Below, in pieces: positions 2,526 to 51,207 of a DNA stretch of 51,930 nucleotides; within the stretch, counting starts at the first letter, position 1, and each line of letters starts with the position of its first letter. Made by a program: the position numbers and the translations under genes. The stretch comes from Cytophagales bacterium (lineage in GTDB: Bacteria > Bacteroidota > Bacteroidia > Cytophagales > Thermoflexibacteraceae), in assembly GCA_013299115.1 (NCBI GenBank), contig JAAFKA010000033.1:1-51930 (forward strand), given 5' to 3'. Under the pieces are notes generated by a model. It was not told where the DNA came from. It saw only the letters and a list, made by a program, of their open reading frames with translations, and ran no database searches.

Positions 2526-3533
2526 ATGAAACACATAGACGTAGCCTTACAAGGCGGAGGTTCTCACGGTGCCTTTACTTGGGGTGTATTAGAAAGTTTG
2601 CTCGAACACGAAGAACTGCACATTGCAGGCATCTGCGGCACCAGTGCAGGGGCTATGAATGCTGCCATGTTAGCCTACGGCTTAATGAAAGGGGGCAAAC
2701 AAGGTGCAAAAGAACTGTTGCATAAGTTTTGGCGAAAAATAGCCGACATCAATGCTTTCACGCCTATTCAGCCCAGTTGGTACGACAAGCTAAGAAGCCC
2801 TGGCAACATGGATACTTCGTTTACGTTCAACTTTTTACACCAAGTGATGCAATTTGTTTCGCCTTATCAATTCAATCCGTTGAATCTCAATCCATTGAAA
2901 AATGTTTTGTTAGAATTTATCAACTTTGAGGAATTGCAACAGTGCCAGCAGACTAAGTTATTTGTTTGTGCTACCAACGTAAGGCGAGGCAGAGCAAAAG
3001 TGTTTCGCACCAAAGAAATTTCGGTAGATGCCATTTTAGCTTCGGCTTGCTTGCCGTTTTTGTTTCAGGCTGTTCGCATAGACGGCGAGGACTACTGGGA
3101 CGGTGGCTATATGGGCAATCCGCCTATTTTTCCCCTCATCGATGGCACAGATTGCAACGATATTTTGATAGTGCAAATCAACCCCATAGAGATAGACCAC
3201 ACGCCAATGACTGCCTTAGAAATTCAGGACAGAATAAACGAATTGAGTTTTAATTCAAGCCTGATGTTAGAAATGCGGAGAGTCAATTTTGTGCAAAAAA
3301 TGCTCGAAAATGGTATCAATATAGACAACCGTTTCAAAAACTTGTTGCTACACAATATCAATCCTGAAAAAGATTTAGCACAGTTCAACACATCGAGTAA
3401 ACTCAACGCCAACTGGGATTTTTTGCTTTGGCTACACAGGTTAGGCAAAAAATACGGCAAGGAATGGCTCGACCAAAATTTTGATAAAATAGGCAAAGAG
3501 TCTACTTGTGATGTGCAGAAGGTGTTTTTGTAG
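2526..3533 (+). CDS. Patatin-like phospholipase
   Basis: 335 residues. Three patatin hallmarks are visible: the glycine-rich oxyanion loop GGGSHGAF (residues 10-17), the nucleophile elbow GTSAG with catalytic Ser40, and the DGG motif with the second catalytic residue Asp192 (YWDGGYMGNPP). These predict a Ser-Asp dyad lipid acyl hydrolase. The C-terminal ~130 residues resemble the DUF3734-type extension found in many bacterial patatins. No signal peptide is seen, so it is probably cytoplasmic and acts on membrane or storage lipids; the substrate is unknown. It lies about 60 bp upstream of the phosphorylase gene on the same strand and could be co-transcribed with it. Confidence 0.9.
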   Translation: MKHIDVALQGGGSHGAFTWGVLESLLEHEELHIAGICGTSAGAMNAAMLAYGLMKGGKQGAKELLHKFWRKIADINAFTPIQPSWYDKLRSPGNMDTSFTFNFLHQVMQFVSPYQFNPLNLNPLKNVLLEFINFEELQQCQQTKLFVCATNVRRGRAKVFRTKEISVDAILASACLPFLFQAVRIDGEDYWDGGYMGNPPIFPLIDGTDCNDILIVQINPIEIDHTPMTALEIQDRINELSFNSSLMLEMRRVNFVQKMLENGINIDNRFKNLLLHNINPEKDLAQFNTSSKLNANWDFLLWLHRLGKKYGKEWLDQNFDKIGKESTCDVQKVFL

Positions 3534-3593
3534 GCAATTAGGGCAAAACAATTAGGGCAGAAAAGGTATTTTACAGCTTAAACTCGTAATTTT

Positions 3594-4409
3594 ATGACCT
3601 ATATCGAACAACTTTCAACGGCTTGCCAATTTATCAAGCAGCATTATCAGTATCCTATTGACACAGGAATTATCTTAGGCACAGGTTTGGGGGGGTTGGC
3701 AACAGAAATAGACCTTCAGTTGGCATTAGATTATGTCGATATTCCGCATTTTCCTGTTTCCACAGTAGAAAGTCATCGAGGTAAGTTGTTAATCGGCAAG
3801 TTGGCGGGCAAAACAGTGCTGGCTATGCAAGGTAGGTTTCACTATTACGAGGGCTACTCCATGCGACAAGTGGCTTTCCCCGTTTATGTCATGAAACAGT
3901 TAGGAATAGAGCAAGTTTTTATTTCCAATGCTTCGGGAGGGCTAAATCCAAATTTTCAGAAAGGAGATTTGATGCTCATCGCCGACCATATCAGCCTCTT
4001 TTTGCCTGACAATCCGCTAAGAGGCGAAGGGTTGCCGCAGTTGGGTGTTCGTTTTCCTGATATGTCGGTAGCTTATACGCCCCAATTGTTGGCAAAAGCA
4101 AAAAAGTTAGCAACCCAGCACCAATGGAAATTGCAAGAGGGAGTGTATGTGAGTGTTTCGGGACCCATGTTAGAAACCAAATCCGAATACAAACTCTTGC
4201 GAAACACAGGGGCAGATGCCGTAGGAATGTCCACAATACCCGAAGTGATAGCAGCTCACCACTGCGGGTTGAAAATTTTTGCTGTTTCGGTCATCACAGA
4301 TTTATGCTATGAGCCTTATATTCAACCTATTACCTTAGAAGATTTTATAGCCGTAGCCCACCAAGCTGAACCGAAATTACAGGATTTATTTGTGGAAATG
4401 TTGAGGTAG
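3594..4409 (+). CDS. punA: Purine nucleoside phosphorylase (trimeric type)
   Basis: 271 residues, the usual length of the trimeric PNP family. It cleaves purine (deoxy)nucleosides with phosphate to free base plus (deoxy)ribose-1-phosphate in purine salvage. Motifs in order: phosphate loop GTGLGGLA (about residues 28-35), HRGKLLIG with the phosphate-contacting His, MQGRFHYYEGY, SNASGGLN, the substrate region SGPMLETKSEY, and GMSTIPEVIAA followed by SVITDLC near the C-terminus. The order and spacing match inosine-guanosine phosphorylases rather than the hexameric DeoD type. The start at 3594 places the first strand directly before the phosphate loop. Confidence 0.95.
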   Translation: MTYIEQLSTACQFIKQHYQYPIDTGIILGTGLGGLATEIDLQLALDYVDIPHFPVSTVESHRGKLLIGKLAGKTVLAMQGRFHYYEGYSMRQVAFPVYVMKQLGIEQVFISNASGGLNPNFQKGDLMLIADHISLFLPDNPLRGEGLPQLGVRFPDMSVAYTPQLLAKAKKLATQHQWKLQEGVYVSVSGPMLETKSEYKLLRNTGADAVGMSTIPEVIAAHHCGLKIFAVSVITDLCYEPYIQPITLEDFIAVAHQAEPKLQDLFVEMLR

Positions 4410-42587: not shown

Positions 42588-43020
42588 ACTTTGGCAGCAG
42601 CATTTTTCAAACTTTGGCAGTGGTGCTTTTCAAACCTCGGCAGTGGTGCTTTTTCGCACCCTGCCGATGGTTTCGTTGCTTGTCGTTCAACCATTGGCAG
42701 GGTTTCTCTAAACCTCGGCAGTGGTGCTTTTTCGCACCCTGCCGATGGTTTCGTTGCTTGTCGTTCAACCATTGGCAGGGTTTCTCTAAACCTCGGCAGT
42801 GGTGCTTTTTCGCACCCTGCCGATGGTTTCGTTGCTTGTCGTTCAACCATTGGCAGGGTTTCTCTAAACCTCGGCAGTGGTGCTTTTTCGCACCCTGCCG
42901 ATGGTTTCGTTGCTTGTCGTTCAACCATTGGCAGGGTTTCTCTAAACCTCGGCAGTGGTGCTTTTTCGCACCCTGCCGATGGTTTTTGCACATTCCTCCG
43001 TTCAACCATTGGCAGGGTCT
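42588..43020. repeat. 78-bp minisatellite with internal palindromes
   Basis: Units beginning cctcggcagtggtgc start at 42635, 42713, 42791, 42869 and 42947, an exact 78-bp period. The first four units look essentially identical and the last diverges after about 40 bp. They are preceded by three shorter 23-bp steps (42588, 42611, 42634). Each unit carries accattggcagggt, which pairs with accctgccgatggt (13 of 14), around an inner cggcag...ctgccg hairpin. Because 78 is a multiple of 3, long frames stay open on both strands, but I do not regard them as genes. It fills most of the 738-bp gap between icd and the next gene. Confidence 0.9.
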
Positions 43021-43033
43021 ATCGACCACTGCC

Positions 43034-43087
43034 AAGGTTTCACTTGCAAGGTTTCACTTATAAGGTTTCACTTGCAAGGTTTCACTA
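43034..43087. repeat. 14-bp tandem repeat AAGGTTTCACTTGC
   Basis: Four units of aaggtttcact begin at 43034, 43048, 43062 and 43076. The third has 'tat' in place of 'tgc'. The array ends at the stop codon of the Rossmann gene (43085) and directly follows the minisatellite. Confidence 0.85.
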
Positions 43088-43726
43088 AAATTTTTGCAAT
43101 ACATCAGACTCTAAGATATGCACACCTTCTTTTTTGCTTAGGCTGGAGGCTATCAAGGCTTTGGCTACTTGGGCGGCTGTAATATTTTTGTATTTGGCAG
43201 GAATTAGAAAGTCCAAAGTGTTGCCTATCCAAATACCAATTTCTTCGCCTATGCGGGTTTCTTTGCGGTTGCCCACCAAAAACGAAGGTCGGGCTATATA
43301 CACCGCAGGGAAACCGTATTGGCAAACGGCTTGTTCTACTTCGCCTTTTGTGCGGTTATAAAACACCATACTTTTGGCATTTGCCCCCATTGCAGACACC
43401 ATACCAAAACTTTTTACGCCATTTTGGTAAGCCAGTCGAGCAAAATTATTTGCATACTCAAAGTCCACCTTATAAAAAGCCTCTTTGCTCCCTGCTATTT
43501 TCATTGTTGTTCCCAAACAGCAAAAAGCCACATCTCCTTTGATAAGGGCAGCACTTCGGTTTAGGTTGTCAAAATCTGTGGGGTGTTGGGTGAGTTTGGG
43601 GTGGCGAAGGGGCAACTGGTTGCGGATAAAAACATGAACCGCAGTATATTGGTCGTTTGCCAATAATTGTTCGGTGAGGGCAGTGCCTACCAAACCAGAA
43701 GCACCAATGACAAGGGCAGTGAGCAT
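43085..43726 (-). CDS. NAD(P)-binding Rossmann protein, TIP30/HTATIP2-like
   Basis: 213 residues from the ATG at 43726; the 22 upstream codons pass through an intergenic inverted repeat. It opens with the dinucleotide site LTALVIGASGLVGTALTEQLL. The later segments CCLGTTMKIAGSKEAFYKVDFEY and GMVSAMGANAKSMVFYNRTKGEVEQAV have the pattern of atypical short-chain/NAD(P)H-binding proteins. YNRTKGE contains the YxxxK-like pair. Proteins of this type are often annotated as epimerase-like oxidoreductases; the substrate is unknown. Its stop codon falls on the last unit of a 14-bp tandem repeat. Confidence 0.85.
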   Translation of the reverse strand: MLTALVIGASGLVGTALTEQLLANDQYTAVHVFIRNQLPLRHPKLTQHPTDFDNLNRSAALIKGDVAFCCLGTTMKIAGSKEAFYKVDFEYANNFARLAYQNGVKSFGMVSAMGANAKSMVFYNRTKGEVEQAVCQYGFPAVYIARPSFLVGNRKETRIGEEIGIWIGNTLDFLIPAKYKNITAAQVAKALIASSLSKKEGVHILESDVLQKF

Positions 43727-43762
43727 AAAAAAATAAGTTTTATATTTGCTTAATAGTAGTTG

Positions 43763-43842
43763 TTTAGGAAAGTTGCGTAATAGGCAACTCACCAGTTTTC
43801 AGTTTTTTGCGAATTAGTTGCTCAAAAAACAACTTTCCTAAA
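43763..43842. repeat. Inverted repeat TTTAGGAAAGTTG / CAACTTTCCTAAA
   Basis: Perfect 13-bp arms at 43763-43775 and 43830-43842 enclose a 54-bp centre. The left arm with the following gc...ggcaact resembles the hairpin at 10195-10214. It sits between divergent genes. Confidence 0.75.
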
Positions 43843-45465: not shown

Positions 45466-46341
45466 ATGAAAATAGTTGAATGTCCTCGTGATGCCATGCA
45501 AGGTATCAAGGACTTTATCCCGACTGACCTCAAAGCCACTTACATTAACCACCTGTTGCAAGCAGGTTTTGATACCATTGACTTCGGTAGCTTTGTTTCT
45601 CCAAAAGTTACACCACAAATGCGTGATACAGCCGAAGTATTAAGTAAATTGAATTTGAGCAATACCTATTCTAAATTGTTGGCAATCGTAGCAAGTCTGA
45701 GTGGGGCAAAAATAGCACTTCGACACGAAGAAATCCGCTACATAGGGTTTCCGTTTTCTGTTTCCGAAACTTTTCAGCAACGCAACACCAACAAAAGCAT
45801 AGCAGAGGCTTTTGAGGTATTGCAAGCCCTACAAACTTTGTGTATTCAGTACAACCGAATTTTGGTGGTCTATCTTTCTATGGGCTTTGGCAATCCGTAC
45901 AATGAACCTTACAATCCTGAAATTGTGGCAGAATTTACTCAAAAATTAGACAAAATGGGCGTAAAAATCATAGCTCTGTCTGATACCATTGGCGTTTCGC
46001 ACCCCGATAACATTACACCTTTGTTTGCTACCTTGATTAAAAATTTTGGACATATAGAGTTTGGGGCTCATTTTCACTCCAATCCGCATACGGCTATGCA
46101 AAAAATTCAGGCAGCTTACGTGGCAGGTTGTCGGCGATTTGATGTAGCCATGGGAGGCTTTGGTGGTTGCCCTATGGCAAAAGACGAATTAACAGGTAAC
46201 ATTGCCACTGAAACTTTGTTAGTTTATTTAGCTCAAAATCAGGTAGCTACCAAACTTAACAGCAGATACATAGAAAAGGCACAAGCCTTGATTCCCAAAA
46301 TTTTTGATTTGCATCACGTAAGAAATGGTACTACTAATTAG
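45466..46341 (+). CDS. Hydroxymethylglutaryl-CoA lyase
   Basis: 291 residues. It cleaves HMG-CoA to acetoacetate and acetyl-CoA, the last step of leucine breakdown. A TIM barrel of the DRE-TIM family: IVECPRDAMQGIKDFIP carries the substrate-site Arg-Asp (usually 'VGPRDGLQ'), FDTIDFGSFVSPKVTPQM the Phe-Val-Ser-Pro motif, IEFGAHFHSNPHTA the metal-binding His-x-His, and GGFGGCPMAKDELTGNIATE the Cys loop and Asn ligand. It is close to, but not part of, any leucine degradation cluster. In this genome HMG-CoA can also feed the mevalonate route, so the enzyme sits at a branch (inference). Confidence 0.92.
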   Translation: MKIVECPRDAMQGIKDFIPTDLKATYINHLLQAGFDTIDFGSFVSPKVTPQMRDTAEVLSKLNLSNTYSKLLAIVASLSGAKIALRHEEIRYIGFPFSVSETFQQRNTNKSIAEAFEVLQALQTLCIQYNRILVVYLSMGFGNPYNEPYNPEIVAEFTQKLDKMGVKIIALSDTIGVSHPDNITPLFATLIKNFGHIEFGAHFHSNPHTAMQKIQAAYVAGCRRFDVAMGGFGGCPMAKDELTGNIATETLLVYLAQNQVATKLNSRYIEKAQALIPKIFDLHHVRNGTTN

Positions 46342-46401
46342 AAATATAGAAAATATTTTGTTGTTGGAGTTTATGAATAGTTGAGAAATAGTACTTCTAA
46401 T

Positions 46402-46432
46402 AGCATTACAGTATTAGTTGTGTGGAACTACC
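46402..46432. repeat. Dispersed motif, variant arm
   Basis: agcattacagtattagttgtgtggaactacc; its reverse complement starts ggtagttccacacaactaat, close to the left arm at 5455 (ggtagtgccacacaagtaat), with an insertion before the final aatgct. It lies between two convergent genes. Confidence 0.6.
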
Positions 46433-46460
46433 ATAAATTCTAATATTTACATCTGCTTTT

Positions 46461-47192
46461 TCAAGCACACAAAAAATTAGCAAATTTTTGTGCCAAGCCC
46501 ACTGTTTGGTTTTTGTCGCAAAACAAGAAATAACCAGGGGAGTTGCACTCTATAAAATACGTGCCTTCGGAGGTTTCTATGAAATCAAAAGAGCCAAAAT
46601 TAATTTGCATTGCTTGCATATAAGTCAGGCAAAGGTCTTGGTAAACAAAGTTTGGCACTGCCTCAAAAGTCACTGCCTTTAAATCTTTTCGCCAATCTAA
46701 TTCATAGTTGCCCTCTATTTTGAAAGCATAAACTTCATTGCCAAAAACAACTACCCTGTATTCGCAAACAAAGGCTAATTTTTCTTGAAAGTGATAGACA
46801 TGAAAATCTATTTCCTTGTTTTTTATGGCTTCATAAATAGGTTGGGTAATTAGTGTAGGATAGGTAAAAAACTGTTGCTTGTCTATGGCAATATAGGTAG
46901 AATTGTAAATAGGTTTGAACAAACAAGCTGGGTTTTGCTCATAAAATTGGCTAAAAGTGGCAATGGAATTGGTCAGCACTTGTTCGGCTACTTTCACTCC
47001 CACTTGTTTAGCTATTCTCTGTTGATAAATTTTATTCGTGGCTCGGCTGAGGGTATAAGGATTAGAAACTATCAATACGCCTTGTGCTTCTGCACAGGTA
47101 ATGAGGGCATACAAAATAGAATGATATTCTGTCCGCAAAAAACTTTTCAGGGCTTGCTTCATCCGTTGTGTGCCGAGGTCTGCATACTCCAC
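46461..47192 (-). CDS. ATP-grasp peptide ligase of graspetide type (5'-truncated frame)
   Basis: 243 residues from a GTG at 47192. ATP-grasp landmarks: a linker SRATNKIYQQRIAKQVGVKVAEQVL (helix plus strand before the ATP site), ACLFKPIYNS with the ATP-binding Lys, EYRVVVFGNEVYAFKI, LDWRKDL, and the metal site FGSFDFIETSEGTYFIECNSPG (Asp, Glu-x-Asn). The DWR motif and this order match MvdD/GwsG enzymes that crosslink microviridin-like peptides. Conserved-looking sequence continues upstream without a start codon: IKTIWWGRV and further 'FRIHSDYTID' are readable to 47333, where a TGA stops the frame. The gene is therefore probably frameshifted or lost its natural start. No transporter or precursor of normal length lies beside it. 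Confidence 0.7.
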   Translation of the reverse strand: MEYADLGTQRMKQALKSFLRTEYHSILYALITCAEAQGVLIVSNPYTLSRATNKIYQQRIAKQVGVKVAEQVLTNSIATFSQFYEQNPACLFKPIYNSTYIAIDKQQFFTYPTLITQPIYEAIKNKEIDFHVYHFQEKLAFVCEYRVVVFGNEVYAFKIEGNYELDWRKDLKAVTFEAVPNFVYQDLCLTYMQAMQINFGSFDFIETSEGTYFIECNSPGYFLFCDKNQTVGLAQKFANFLCA

Positions 47193-47287
47193 TCTGCCCC
47201 ACCAAATTGTCTTTATTTCTTGCGAGGTAATAATTTCGTTGGTTTTGGTATTTTTTATGCTAAAAAAGTTGTCGTTTATCCAAACAT

Positions 47288-47365
47288 CTATTGTATAATC
47301 TGAATGAATTCTGAAGTAGCTAACAAAGACAATTCAGACAAAGATTTTCTTTTAGTGTTTTTCAT
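47288..47365 (-). CDS. 25-residue leader-like ORF upstream of the ATP-grasp gene
   Basis: MKNTKRKSLSELSLLATSE then FIQIIQ. The basic start followed by LSELSLL resembles leader peptides of Bacteroidota RiPP precursors (for example those with 'LSLKELS...M..I.GG'), but it has no Gly-Gly site and stops before any core. It overlaps the ligase frame out of phase. A near-consensus promoter (TTG at 47426-47428, 20-bp gap, tattttg at 47399-47405, minus strand) lies just upstream, so its ATG would be the first in the transcript. It may be a real mini-gene, a collapsed precursor, or the displaced N-terminus of the ligase. Confidence 0.4.
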   Translation of the reverse strand: MKNTKRKSLSELSLLATSEFIQIIQ

Positions 47366-47480
47366 GACAACTTGATTTTTTATAGGTTTGAGATAGAACA
47401 AAATACCATGTAAGAAATGGTGTTGCAAGTTAGTTTTTCAGAATAAAAAATCAAATATTTTTGGATATTTTTTGTTTTTG

Positions 47481-47503
47481 TCTGACACTTCAAAAGTGTC
47501 GGA
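47481..47503. repeat. Palindrome TCTGACACTT / AAGTGTCGGA
   Basis: A 10-bp stem (one C/T difference) around caa. The sequence from tctgacac through gtgtcggataaatagag is nearly the same as the right half of the element inside the downstream coding sequence (50733-50765, tcagacacctcaaaggtgtcggataaatggag). Confidence 0.85.
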
Positions 47504-47520
47504 TAAATAGAGTTTATTTG

Positions 47521-47551
47521 TTGTTTTTTTTTCAAAAAATTATTATTTTTG
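47521..47551 (+). promoter_or_regulatory. Candidate promoter of sensor gene B
   Basis: TTG at 47521-47523, a 20-bp spacer, then tatttttg at 47544-47551, fitting the Bacteroidota consensus. Transcription would start near 47558, placing the large hairpin 47599-47691 in the 5' leader. Confidence 0.5.
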
Positions 47552-47598
47552 TTTATACCAAATTGGCTTGTTTAGTTAAAAGCTAATCCAATTAATTA

Positions 47599-47691
47599 AG
47601 CACACAGATAACACAGATTATGCTGATTCTTACGGATAAAAAAATTTAAAAATCTGTTTTTTATCTGTAAAATCAGCGTAATCTGTGTGCT
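47599..47691. repeat. Long hairpin with CACAGATTACGCTGATT motif
   Basis: A left arm (agcacacagat...tgctgattcttacggataaaaaa, to about 47643) and right arm (47657-47691, ttttttatctgtaaaatcagc then gtaatctgtgtgct) are inverted copies of ~35 bp, with a 9-nt duplication (aacacagat) in the left arm. It ends 33 bp upstream of the sensor start codon and should be part of its mRNA leader. It closes the 47366-47724 gap, which otherwise holds promoters and the small palindrome. Confidence 0.85.
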
Positions 47692-47724
47692 AAAAAGCTT
47701 ATTACATTCAACACCAATTACGTC

Positions 47725-50700
47725 ATGCACCAAAGGTTTCTTTTTTTGCTTGTCTTGCTTTTATTGCGTTTTGCTACCATAGCACAAACAGGCACTTTTT
47801 TTATTCAAAACTATAACAAGCATCACTACAAAGGTGAATCCAAGGCGTGGAGCATAGCCCAAGCACCCAACAAAATTATTTATATGGGACAAAGTGGACT
47901 GTTTGAATACGACGGTGTGAAATGGGCTAATACCATAGAAAAAATTTTTGTCCGTGATATTAGTTTTGATGAGGAAAATAATATTTATATAGCTGCAAGT
48001 GATGATTTTGGTATGGTGCAAAAAGATGAAAAAGGCAAAAAATTTACCTCTTTTCTACCACTATTGCCTGACTCTATCAAGAAAGTAACTTTTGTGATTA
48101 ATGTGGTTTGCAAGGCTGATTATGTCTATTTCTCAGGAGAAAATGAACTGTATATTTATCAACGTAGCAGCAATAAAATTATTGAGGTACTAAAATCTGA
48201 CGAAAACTTTGCAAGACCTACCTTGCTAAACAATGTAGTCTATTTAGTGAGTGATAAAAATGGTTTGACAAAAGTAGAAGGCAAAAAAATTACACCTTTG
48301 CCTAACCTAACAAGTTTGGCAGAAAGTGGGATTATGGCAATTTGTTCACGTGGGGCTGACGAGTTAATAATTTTAAGTTATAACAAAGGTATCTCTGTTT
48401 ATCATCTCAAAAACCAAACCCTTAGTCAATTACAGACTCCTATCAATGATTGGATTATTAAAAATAGGGCTTATGCTGCTACACAATTTGCAGATAAACA
48501 AGGCAGACAATATTATGTAATTGGCACAAACAAAGATGGTATCTACATCATAGACCAAACAGGCAAACCTATTCAACACCTCAACAAAACTGTTGGGCTA
48601 CCCGATAATAATATAAATGCTTTGCTAACCGACCACAACAACAACATTTGGGCAGCTACGGACAAAGGCGTATCACAACTATTTACCAGCCTGCCTTTTA
48701 CAGAATTTGGCATTGCCCAAAACATACAAAGCACCATTTATGATGTGTTGAAACACGAGGGCAGGCTCTATTTAGGGACAAGTACAGGCGTAATGGTGGC
48801 AAAGGGCAACCAATTTGAGTTCTTAGCCCAGATGCCCGCCACCCAAAGTTGGGATTTGCAGCCTTTTGGTAAAGATGTAATTGTGGCAGGTGGCAATTAT
48901 GGTTTTTATTATTTGGTCGATGGCAAAATTCGCCAAAATATAGAGGCTGATTGGGCTACCATGGCTATTGGCAGGTCTGCAAAAGATAGCAATGTGGTTT
49001 TCAACGCCAAATATCAAGGTTTTGAGGTCTTGCGGTTCAGACAAGGAAAATTTGAAAAATTAGGACATATCAAAGAGTTTGAAAAGACTATCAACAGGTC
49101 TGTTTTTGAGGATACAAACGGGGCAGTTTGGGTGGGAGTTCCCAAAGAAGGTTTTTATCAAATCAAATTTGAGGGCAGTATCAACGAAAACAGCGTAAAA
49201 AATGCCAAAGTTACTCTCCACACCAAAGGTTTAGGCGAAGTGGTGGGCTGTTATGTGGTGCAAGATGCCAACAAACAACTGCTATTTTCCACCCGAAGTG
49301 GTTTGTATGTTTTCGATGAGCAAAGCCAAAGTTTTGCGTTGCATAATCCTTACCAAATAGATTATAAACAACGGCGATACAAAAGTTTTTATCCGAGTTT
49401 TGATAGCCAAAATAATGCGTGGCTGCCCAAAACTCTCACCATTTTACGCAAGCAAAACCAGCAATATGCCATAGACAGCACCACCTTGCAACCACTTTTA
49501 GAACCTGTACTTAGTTTTTTTGAGGACAAAGACAGTGTGTATTGGCTGGCAACAGGCGAAAAATTGTATCAATATGATGCCAAGTACAAAATTCCTACGC
49601 AGTCCTCTTTTCCTGCGGTGGTGCGTATGGTAAAAATTTCGTCTGTGGACTCTATTTTGTGCCAAAGCAACTGCCTGATGAACGAAAAAGAGAAAACTAT
49701 TCTGCCTTATCAATACAATTCTCTGCTTTTTGAGTATGCTACTTTGAGTTATTATTCTGAAAAAGATAACCAATTTCAGTACAAATTGGAAGGTTACGAA
49801 AACAGTTGGTCGGTGTGGACAAAAGAAGCACGCAAAGAATACACCAACCTCCCCGAAGGCAACTACCGATTTGTGGTGAGGGCAAAAAATGCTTTGCAAG
49901 AAATGAGTACCGAAAGTAGCTATACTTTTGTAGTCAAACCACCATTTTACCGTACATGGTGGGCTTATTTGGCTTATGCGTTGGCTGCTGTTTTGGGGGT
50001 TTATTCTTTGGTTAAATTGAATACTCATCGTTTAATAGAGGCTAAAATTCGTTTGGAGAAAATAGTGCAGCAAAGAACCCAAGAAGTGCAGCTAAAAAAT
50101 GTGGAATTGGAGCAACAAAAAGAGGAAATTTTGGCTCAATCTGAAAATCTGAAACAGATAAACGAGGAAATCAAAACCATAAACGAGGAGCTAAACAGCA
50201 CCTTAGATTTGGCGAATTTCCAAAAAAGAGAAATAGAAAAACAACACGAAGACATCACAGCAAGCATCACCTACGCCCAACGGATACAGACTGCCATGTT
50301 GCCTTTTGAGGAGAGAATTAGCAAATCTCTACACGACTTTTTTGTGTTTTACCAACCTCGTGATATAGTAAGCGGAGATTTTTACTGGTTTCAAGACACC
50401 AGCATTGGTAGTTATTCTATCCAAGAAACTACGCAAATTGCCCAAGACAACAAGGTGATTATGGTGGTTGCCGACTGCACAGGACATGGCGTGCCTGGGG
50501 CTTTTATGAGCATGATAGGCAATGAATTGTTGAACCAAATTGTAAATATGCACCACATCACAAGTCCCGACAAGATTTTGGAGGCTCTGCACAAAGGCAT
50601 TTTATATGCTCTCAAACAAGAGCAGAGCAACAACAAAGATGGAATGGACATTGCCATTATGGTTTTGACTAAACACCAAGAGGAAAATAAAGACCTATCC

Positions 50701-51207
50701 GACACCTTTGAGGCGTCGTATAAATTGGCTTTATCAGACACCTCAAAGGTGTCGGATAAATGGAGTTTGCTGGAATACGCAGGAGCAATGAACCCACTGT
50801 ATTTGGTAACAGCCAAAAACAGCGAAATTCTGCCCGACTATTTGAAACAAAACCCAACCCTAAGCACCGAAAATGCAGATTTCTTTGACATAAAAGCCAC
50901 CAAGCACCCCATTGGCGGACACTCCGAAGATAGCAAAAGCAGAGTTTTTGAAAAACATAGCTTTGATTTGACTAAAAAAGCAGCAGACGAAACCTTATGC
51001 TTTTACCTTTGCTCTGATGGCTATCAAGACCAATTTGGTGGCGAAAAAGAAAGCAAGTTTATGGTGCGTAAATTCAAAAAATTGCTTTTTGACATACACG
51101 AACAGCCTCTTGCTGAGCAAAAACAAGTCTTAGAACAGACTTTTATGGATTGGAAAGGCAAACAGAAGCAAATCGATGATGTGTTGGTGATGGGTGTACG
51201 GTTATGA
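47725..51207 (+). CDS. Periplasmic propeller sensor with SpoIIE phosphatase (B)
   Basis: 1160 residues, paralogue of the protein at 16287-19538. Signal peptide about residues 1-20; propeller repeats to about 640 (e.g. DHNNNIWAATDKGVSQLF); Y_Y_Y domain (NLPEGNYRFVVRAKNALQE); one membrane helix at about 748-765 (WWAYLAYALAAVLGVYSLV); a long coiled coil (about 775-850); SpoIIE/PP2C phosphatase at about 855-1160 with VSGDFYW, VADCTGHGVPGAFMSMIG and YLCSDGYQDQFGG. Both metal-site Asp motifs are intact. A ~21-residue insert (about 991-1011, LSDTFEASYK...VSDK) inside the phosphatase, just before LLEYAGAMNP, is encoded by a palindrome. Input and target unknown; likely regulates a sigma-factor or stress switch, as SpoIIE-type proteins do (inference). 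Confidence 0.93.
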   Translation: MHQRFLFLLVLLLLRFATIAQTGTFFIQNYNKHHYKGESKAWSIAQAPNKIIYMGQSGLFEYDGVKWANTIEKIFVRDISFDEENNIYIAASDDFGMVQKDEKGKKFTSFLPLLPDSIKKVTFVINVVCKADYVYFSGENELYIYQRSSNKIIEVLKSDENFARPTLLNNVVYLVSDKNGLTKVEGKKITPLPNLTSLAESGIMAICSRGADELIILSYNKGISVYHLKNQTLSQLQTPINDWIIKNRAYAATQFADKQGRQYYVIGTNKDGIYIIDQTGKPIQHLNKTVGLPDNNINALLTDHNNNIWAATDKGVSQLFTSLPFTEFGIAQNIQSTIYDVLKHEGRLYLGTSTGVMVAKGNQFEFLAQMPATQSWDLQPFGKDVIVAGGNYGFYYLVDGKIRQNIEADWATMAIGRSAKDSNVVFNAKYQGFEVLRFRQGKFEKLGHIKEFEKTINRSVFEDTNGAVWVGVPKEGFYQIKFEGSINENSVKNAKVTLHTKGLGEVVGCYVVQDANKQLLFSTRSGLYVFDEQSQSFALHNPYQIDYKQRRYKSFYPSFDSQNNAWLPKTLTILRKQNQQYAIDSTTLQPLLEPVLSFFEDKDSVYWLATGEKLYQYDAKYKIPTQSSFPAVVRMVKISSVDSILCQSNCLMNEKEKTILPYQYNSLLFEYATLSYYSEKDNQFQYKLEGYENSWSVWTKEARKEYTNLPEGNYRFVVRAKNALQEMSTESSYTFVVKPPFYRTWWAYLAYALAAVLGVYSLVKLNTHRLIEAKIRLEKIVQQRTQEVQLKNVELEQQKEEILAQSENLKQINEEIKTINEELNSTLDLANFQKREIEKQHEDITASITYAQRIQTAMLPFEERISKSLHDFFVFYQPRDIVSGDFYWFQDTSIGSYSIQETTQIAQDNKVIMVVADCTGHGVPGAFMSMIGNELLNQIVNMHHITSPDKILEALHKGILYALKQEQSNNKDGMDIAIMVLTKHQEENKDLSDTFEASYKLALSDTSKVSDKWSLLEYAGAMNPLYLVTAKNSEILPDYLKQNPTLSTENADFFDIKATKHPIGGHSEDSKSRVFEKHSFDLTKKAADETLCFYLCSDGYQDQFGGEKESKFMVRKFKKLLFDIHEQPLAEQKQVLEQTFMDWKGKQKQIDDVLVMGVRL
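50696..50758. repeat. 63-bp palindrome inside the SpoIIE coding sequence
   Basis: tatccgacacctttgagg (50696-50713) and cctcaaaggtgtcggata (50741-50758) are exact inverse complements, 18 of 18, and the 27-bp centre is itself partly palindromic. It is read in frame as LSDTFEASYKLALSDTSKVSD with no stop. The paralogue at 16287 has a shorter, different sequence at this point. Confidence 0.92.

Follow-up and report, generated by a model that had tools for sequence, protein, structure and literature searches.

A truncated graspetide-type ligase and an out-of-frame leader remnant: a two-gene RiPP locus of a Cytophagales bacterium probably broken by one deletion

The closest described systems to the locus reported here are the microviridin ligases MdnC/MdnB (MvdD/MvdC) and the chryseoviridin ligase CdnC, the grasp-with-spasm loci (GwsG, TIGR04192; SPASM, TIGR04193), and laboratory-made MvdC/MvdD ligases fused to a leader. 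Two motifs are described for graspetide leaders in PMC8939145, PFFARFL and Phhx(1,2)h; about 50% of precursors have the second. We analyzed a 51,930-nucleotide stretch of contig JAAFKA010000033.1 from a Cytophagales bacterium (assembly GCA_013299115.1), hereafter the window, which carries on its minus strand a ligase with the same ATP-grasp fold as MdnC/MdnB and CdnC. The K, R, DWR, D, and E-x-N residues of those enzymes are kept in it, and in its closest relative, from genome G781, a precursor lies upstream of the ligase, as in the microviridin and chryseoviridin systems. In contrast, the window ligase is only about 16 to 19% identical to them in fold alignments, its N-terminus appears to have been deleted, the leader has no PFFARFL, and the core is unrelated. 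Most probably, we see here what is left of a graspetide-type RiPP locus of two genes, a precursor and a ligase, that were broken and joined by one deletion.

The ligase frame (47333-46461, minus strand) comprises 290 open codons and is closed on its upstream side by TGA 47334-47336. Its first ATG, GTG, or TTG is GTG 47192, and its first ATG lies at 47162. This extent, the lack of a start before GTG 47192, and the motifs DWR, EYRV, and E-x-N had all been given in a preliminary description of the DNA and were found as described, together with IKTIWWGRV and FRIHSDYTID. In 500 dinucleotide shuffles of the region, stop-free runs reached at most 140 codons, versus 290 in the real sequence. The codon score of the frame was 0.19 bits per codon, compared with 0.10 to 0.32 for 29 window genes, on which the scores were also trained; its first 47 codons scored low (0.03 bits per codon). 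All of the ATP-grasp core residues are there (K101, K140, Q183, R193, D213-W214-R215, D250, E262, N264, and G267). Of 33 alignment columns with at least 85% conservation, the window ligase matches 22, the lowest value among 97 rows (L004, L019, and five loci without an N-terminus having been left out), and at the 80% level it has 10 non-gap mismatches, 7 of which are common to the G781 ligase.

Comparison with NCBIfam gave matches to TIGR04187 (4.8e-31; 108.1 bits, cut-off 350), MvdC (1.8e-27; 96.3 bits, cut-off 425), and MvdD (2.9e-23; 82.6 bits, cut-off 475), none of which reached the cut-off, with GwsG TIGR04192 further off (2.4e-14; 53.4 bits, cut-off 230). Graspetide-type ligases also came out on top in a sequence search of the PDB (5ig8, 1.2e-15; 7mgv, 8.8e-14; also 7m4s, 5ig9, and 9bou). 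An AlphaFold model of the 290 codons, computed with an alignment (A2) that used 42 of 75 full-length relatives, had a mean pLDDT of 89.9, and its best Foldseek match was MdnC. With VIA-align, the model superposed on MdnC (5ig9) from its residue 20 onward, with a Z of 25.7 and an rmsd of 2.1 across 269 residues. Graspetide ligases gave Z values of 21.6 and above, versus 18.2 for LysX and 18.1 for RimK, indicating that they stand out over the wider ATP-grasp background. By profile and predicted fold, the frame is thus an MvdC/MvdD-type (graspetide) ATP-grasp ligase without about its first 28 residues.

The preliminary description had assigned the enzyme to an MvdD/GwsG type. The profiles and the fold agree with the MvdC/MvdD part of this assignment, but membership in GwsG was rejected because of the low TIGR04192 score, a position outside the GwsG clade, and the presence of a separate locus that passes the cut-offs. 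That locus, on contig C16 of the same genome, encodes a GG-type precursor ORF (523-714), GwsG (1498-2472; 295.9 bits, cut-off 230), and a SPASM maturase (2676-3689; 353 bits, cut-off 175), and a 233-aa ORF lies between its precursor and its ligase. In a quick tree, made before G781 was known and without L019 (same place as L066), L074, L079, L090, L113, and L128, the window ligase fell outside the 8-row clade holding the C16 GwsG, on a long and uncertain branch. The locus resembles grasp-with-spasm systems in pairing an ATP-grasp ligase with a GG-type precursor, but no SPASM gene was found among the five window neighbors profiled, namely, genes for an isocitrate dehydrogenase, an epimerase-like protein, a 504-aa family-less protein, an HMG-CoA-lyase-like protein, and a Reg_prop/SpoIIE protein; this profiling covered the larger neighbors. 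In the same-genus genome G001, a contig end carries a SPASM protein and part of a grasp-with-spasm ligase.

The window ligase lacks the beginning of its family. For comparison, we used the best 80 of 295 relatives from a genome-contig search, all at most 29% identical to the window ligase, and a family profile built without rows L004, L022, and L024. In 75 of these 80 relatives, the match starts at profile position 1 to 4 and a start codon lies no more than about six codons from where it is expected; the match of the window ligase starts at position 32. Similarly, the pre-ATP-grasp domain PF21068 scored 12.5 in the window, under the cut-off of 27, versus 31.8, over the cut-off, in the G781 ligase. 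A profile of the N-terminal 36 residues run against the six frames of 46001-49700 found nothing above the inclusion threshold (best E 0.44). As the N-terminus is in no frame, it has been lost, and a simple frameshift of an intact ligase gene was rejected. Together with the NCBIfam matches and the MdnC fold, these data bear out the earlier view of a graspetide-type ligase with a missing N-terminus. Residues 7 to 47, which lie upstream of GTG 47192, are no less conserved with respect to G781 (21 of 41 aligned positions) than the remainder (120 of 238), which is not the picture of relatives that start at the GTG and have no homology upstream of it. Five of the 80 related ligases (L074, L079, L090, L113, and L128) likewise have no in-frame profile N-terminus; they could be other broken loci, frameshifts, or sequencing errors.

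The only close relative came from the genomes of the order. BLAST searches with the window protein returned its own copy only among 39 genomes, its own included (E <= 0.001), and 17 matching genomes at 1e-8, again including its own, among 390 of the order, with the G781 ligase 49% identical over residues 9 to 288 (1.6e-85). Among 395 genomes of the class, 13 matched at 1e-8, and among 395 of the phylum, a set overlapping with the former, 3 matched at 1e-20; these counts include its own, and the other matches were at most 29% identical. No relative was found in a search of genome contigs with P0001, the translated ligase frame, or of viral contigs with P0001 and with alignment A3. Plasmid searches returned distant ligases only, in 35 records with the window ligase (E <= 0.01) and in 1 record with the G781 ligase (1e-10).

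At 318 aa, the G781 ligase (beginning MEKNKILIISNTSDYEVDEIENNLAKEVCFRINTD...) is full length and, like that of the window, scores under the curated cut-offs of MvdC, MvdD, and TIGR04187. A 53-aa GG-type ORF, MDKKKAKKSLTELSLSVTSLTTEEITQVTGGLRRESRRKSLETRQERELKTRS, lies on the same strand and ends 57 bases upstream of the ligase ATG, whereas the window has a leader remnant only beside its ligase. The preliminary description had called the window ligase an orphan, which holds for its present state only. The leader of the G781 precursor ends in GG, and its core has Ser, Thr, Lys, Glu, and many Arg. Neither this precursor nor the window remnant contains a proline, so the motifs PFFARFL and Phhx(1,2)h are absent, and no NCBIfam or Pfam model matches the precursor at E <= 0.01. 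With its upstream precursor, single ligase, and GG site, the intact form resembles a graspetide locus of minimal size, and the pair is a candidate new graspetide-like family. It was seen intact in G781 only among the genomes searched: the G781 ligase retrieved a single other match at 1e-20 from 290 relatives of G781 (G047, 31%), and the 53-aa precursor retrieved from 390 genomes G781 itself and weak matches in G901 and G918 (E 0.08). Elsewhere among the fetched loci, two ORFs upstream of ligases (L152:1082-1429, 115 aa, and L157:1061-1366, 101 aa) repeat T-rich and EPSD-type motifs and are likely multi-core graspetide precursors.

Next to the window ligase, the 25-codon ORF MKNTKRKSLSELSLLATSEFIQIIQ (47288-47365, minus strand), ending at TAG 47288-47290, is in a different frame from the ligase, as had been noted before. 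Its length is unremarkable, as ATG-started ORFs of 25 or more codons occur in 629 of 1,000 shuffles of 47193-47724; what gives it meaning is solely the match with the G781 precursor. The part from the ATG to ...KSLSELSLLATS (47312-47365) aligns with MDKKKAKKSLTELSLSVTS of that precursor and reads as a leader remnant, followed by an out-of-frame tail. The window leader sequence starts MKNTKRKSLSELSLL..., and the G781 leader KKSLTELSLSVTS matches the window KRKSLSELSLLATS over 17 residues without gaps, with a score of 43 that 9 of 20,000 shuffles reach. The match ranks first among 11,417 small ORFs scanned in the fetched loci, a number that includes repeats from overlapping loci (43, next 35). 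In a reverse scan of 7,644 ORFs, run without the G781 loci and the neighbor-search loci (L032-L056), the window ORF again came first (43, next 39). The 18 aligned leader codons encode 10 identical residues, 7 of them through different synonymous codons, arguing for a conserved protein and not merely similar DNA. The leader-like character claimed for the ORF is thus upheld by the G781 precursor, but not by ORF length.

The similarity of the two leaders rests on 17 residues and on position, and the short ORF might instead have arisen by chance beside a divergent or truncated ATP-grasp protein that was never paired with such a precursor. The ordinary length of the ORF would fit this, as would the shortness of the match and its lack of significance at whole-genome scale, where a search with the 53-aa G781 precursor missed the window ORF in its own genome at E <= 0.1. 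Yet the best of the 11,417 ORFs occupies precisely the place of the precursor next to the closest ligase, and the synonymous codon pattern also speaks against chance, making such a coincidence improbable. A search of the window leader against 3,800 ATG ORFs in 111 other ligase loci had given a best score of 32 (best of 20 shuffles, 31 to 41); this null result, which once weighed against the leader idea, was overturned when the closest ligase was found. No second precursor of the G781 kind was found in the genome of the window at E <= 0.1, and a search with P0002 of this genome and of G001 returned itself only (E <= 10). The promoter-like element proposed upstream of the ORF proved weak. With TTG-N19-21-TAnnTTTG as the promoter consensus, no site with at least 5 of 6 core bases is present in 47366-47724; the G781 gene has a site with 6 of 6.

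Neighboring genes are also shared with G781. The divergent Reg_prop/Y_Y_Y/SpoIIE gene (47725-51207, plus strand) is 40% identical to its G781 counterpart (L162:10305-13649), with 772 bits versus at most 491 for 12 other loci from the family of the window ligase, compared out of 28 listed, some of these 12 being cut at the locus end. An NAD(P)-binding epimerase-like gene (43085-43792, minus strand) is also found near the G781 locus (44%). Synteny with G001 was uninformative, the HMG-CoA-lyase-like gene alone being shared, on a 9.9-kb contig. The PF07228 match of the SpoIIE part covers profile positions 2 to 58 of 192 in the window versus 2 to 191 in G781.

Several repeats lie around these genes. 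An imperfect palindrome of about 100 bp (47589-47693) is dispersed in the genome, its best other copy being 89% alike over about 105 bp. A short palindromic repeat at 47477-47515 (CACTTTTGAAGTGTC core at 47484) has related copies scattered over many sites in the genome. One of them (50730-50768), 87% alike, falls within the open frame 47725-51207, in its SpoIIE part with the PF07228 match to positions 2 to 58; this element may be a repeat spreading into coding sequence. A 78-bp tandem array at 42632-43018 (4.9 copies, 97% matches) is open in several frames.

At TTCA 47315-47312, the alignment with the G781 leader stops and that with the G781 ligase starts. The 5′-truncated ligase, identified by NCBIfam, G781 identity, and the fold model, extends from F7 of P0001 onward (46461-47315, minus strand), and the shared TTCA (47312-47315), common to leader (ACTTCA) and ligase (TTCAGA), would be the deletion junction by comparison with G781. 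In the latter, the leader GTTACTTCATTG and the ligase GTATGTTTCAGA each contain TTCA, 253 bp apart as calculated from the coordinates. Precursor and ligase are in the same phase in G781, and losing 253 bp would give the frame relation seen in the window. From this one relative, we infer a deletion at a microhomology.

In the intact state, which G781 would preserve, a short precursor gene would have stood before the gene for an MvdC/MvdD-type ATP-grasp ligase, both on one strand. If it works like the graspetide ligases already known, this enzyme would bind the leader and link core Glu side chains to Ser, Thr, or Lys. A deletion of about 253 bp, as measured on G781, probably between the TTCA copies, would have taken the remaining leader codons, core, and spacer, along with roughly 28 codons from the start of the ligase. 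The leftover leader codons now enter the ligase in the wrong frame and meet a stop after 25 codons. A complete ligase can no longer be made; translation from GTG 47192 or ATG 47162 could at best give a product lacking the pre-ATP-grasp domain, with a probable loss of function. The truncation, the join in the wrong frame, and the intact-looking relative are directly visible in the sequences. The loss of the N-terminus, the intact-looking G781 pair, the leader match and its synonymous codons, the shared neighbors, the branch lengths and lack of a stop, and the MdnC fold all lead to this deletion. It had been offered in the preliminary description as a joining of precursor and ligase, and gains support from the full-length G781 ligase and the matching leader upstream of it.

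The ligase frame shows no visible decay. FastTree branches were 0.66 for the window ligase and 0.60 for that of G781, and among columns with at least 80% conservation, 3 show a departure in the window only and 1 in G781 only, with the 4 gap columns of the window left out (set without L019, L074, L079, L090, L113, L128, and L004). A neutrally drifting frame would be expected to acquire a stop within some 0.065 substitutions per site (P = 0.05), and that of the window has none in 290 codons. As its branch is barely longer than that of G781 and no stop is present, either the break happened recently, or the frame is maintained by some residual use, or the contig is in error; some constraint on the frame after the break is possible, although the low codon score of the first 47 codons points the other way. 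If the junction were a sequencing or assembly error, the strain would have an intact precursor and ligase, in line with the stop-free frame, the similar branches, and the origin of the window in a single draft genome of 74 contigs. However, losing about 253 bp with only 4 bp shared would presumably be an unusual artifact. A DNA search with 47280-47720, with 40 of 284 candidates scored, found dispersed repeats only upstream of 47457 and none at the junction (84 matches, several per copy because the repeats are palindromic). We therefore consider such an error unlikely.

The join might also be functional, a -1 frameshift near codon 16 yielding a leader-fused ligase or the leader ORF controlling ligase translation. 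Its appeal comes from the conserved ligase frame and from laboratory-made leader-fused MvdC/MvdD enzymes, which are constitutively active (PMC9826346). As in those constructs, a leader is set before a ligase; unlike them, the window join is natural, out of frame, and linker-free, and the enzyme N-terminus is lost. No canonical X_XXY_YYZ heptamer was found in the ORF, the first part of the pre-ATP-grasp domain and the core peptide are gone, and the genome yielded no second such precursor at the threshold given above. A functional fusion is thus very improbable, and frameshift control of ligase translation, as put forward earlier, is not supported because a canonical slippery heptamer is absent and the enzyme N-terminus is lost from every frame. 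It is hardly to be expected that rare -1 slippage or re-initiation gives a leader-tethered ligase with a substrate elsewhere in the genome, as a natural counterpart of the engineered fusions.

Our literature search found no paper linking graspetides with pseudogenes. Read as the outcome of a deletion, the locus would show legibly how a minimal RiPP system can disappear, one event destroying precursor and enzyme together. G781 provides an apparently intact pair with an Arg-rich core and a precursor without PFFARFL or Phhx(1,2)h. Broken loci can also end up among the ligases counted as orphans.
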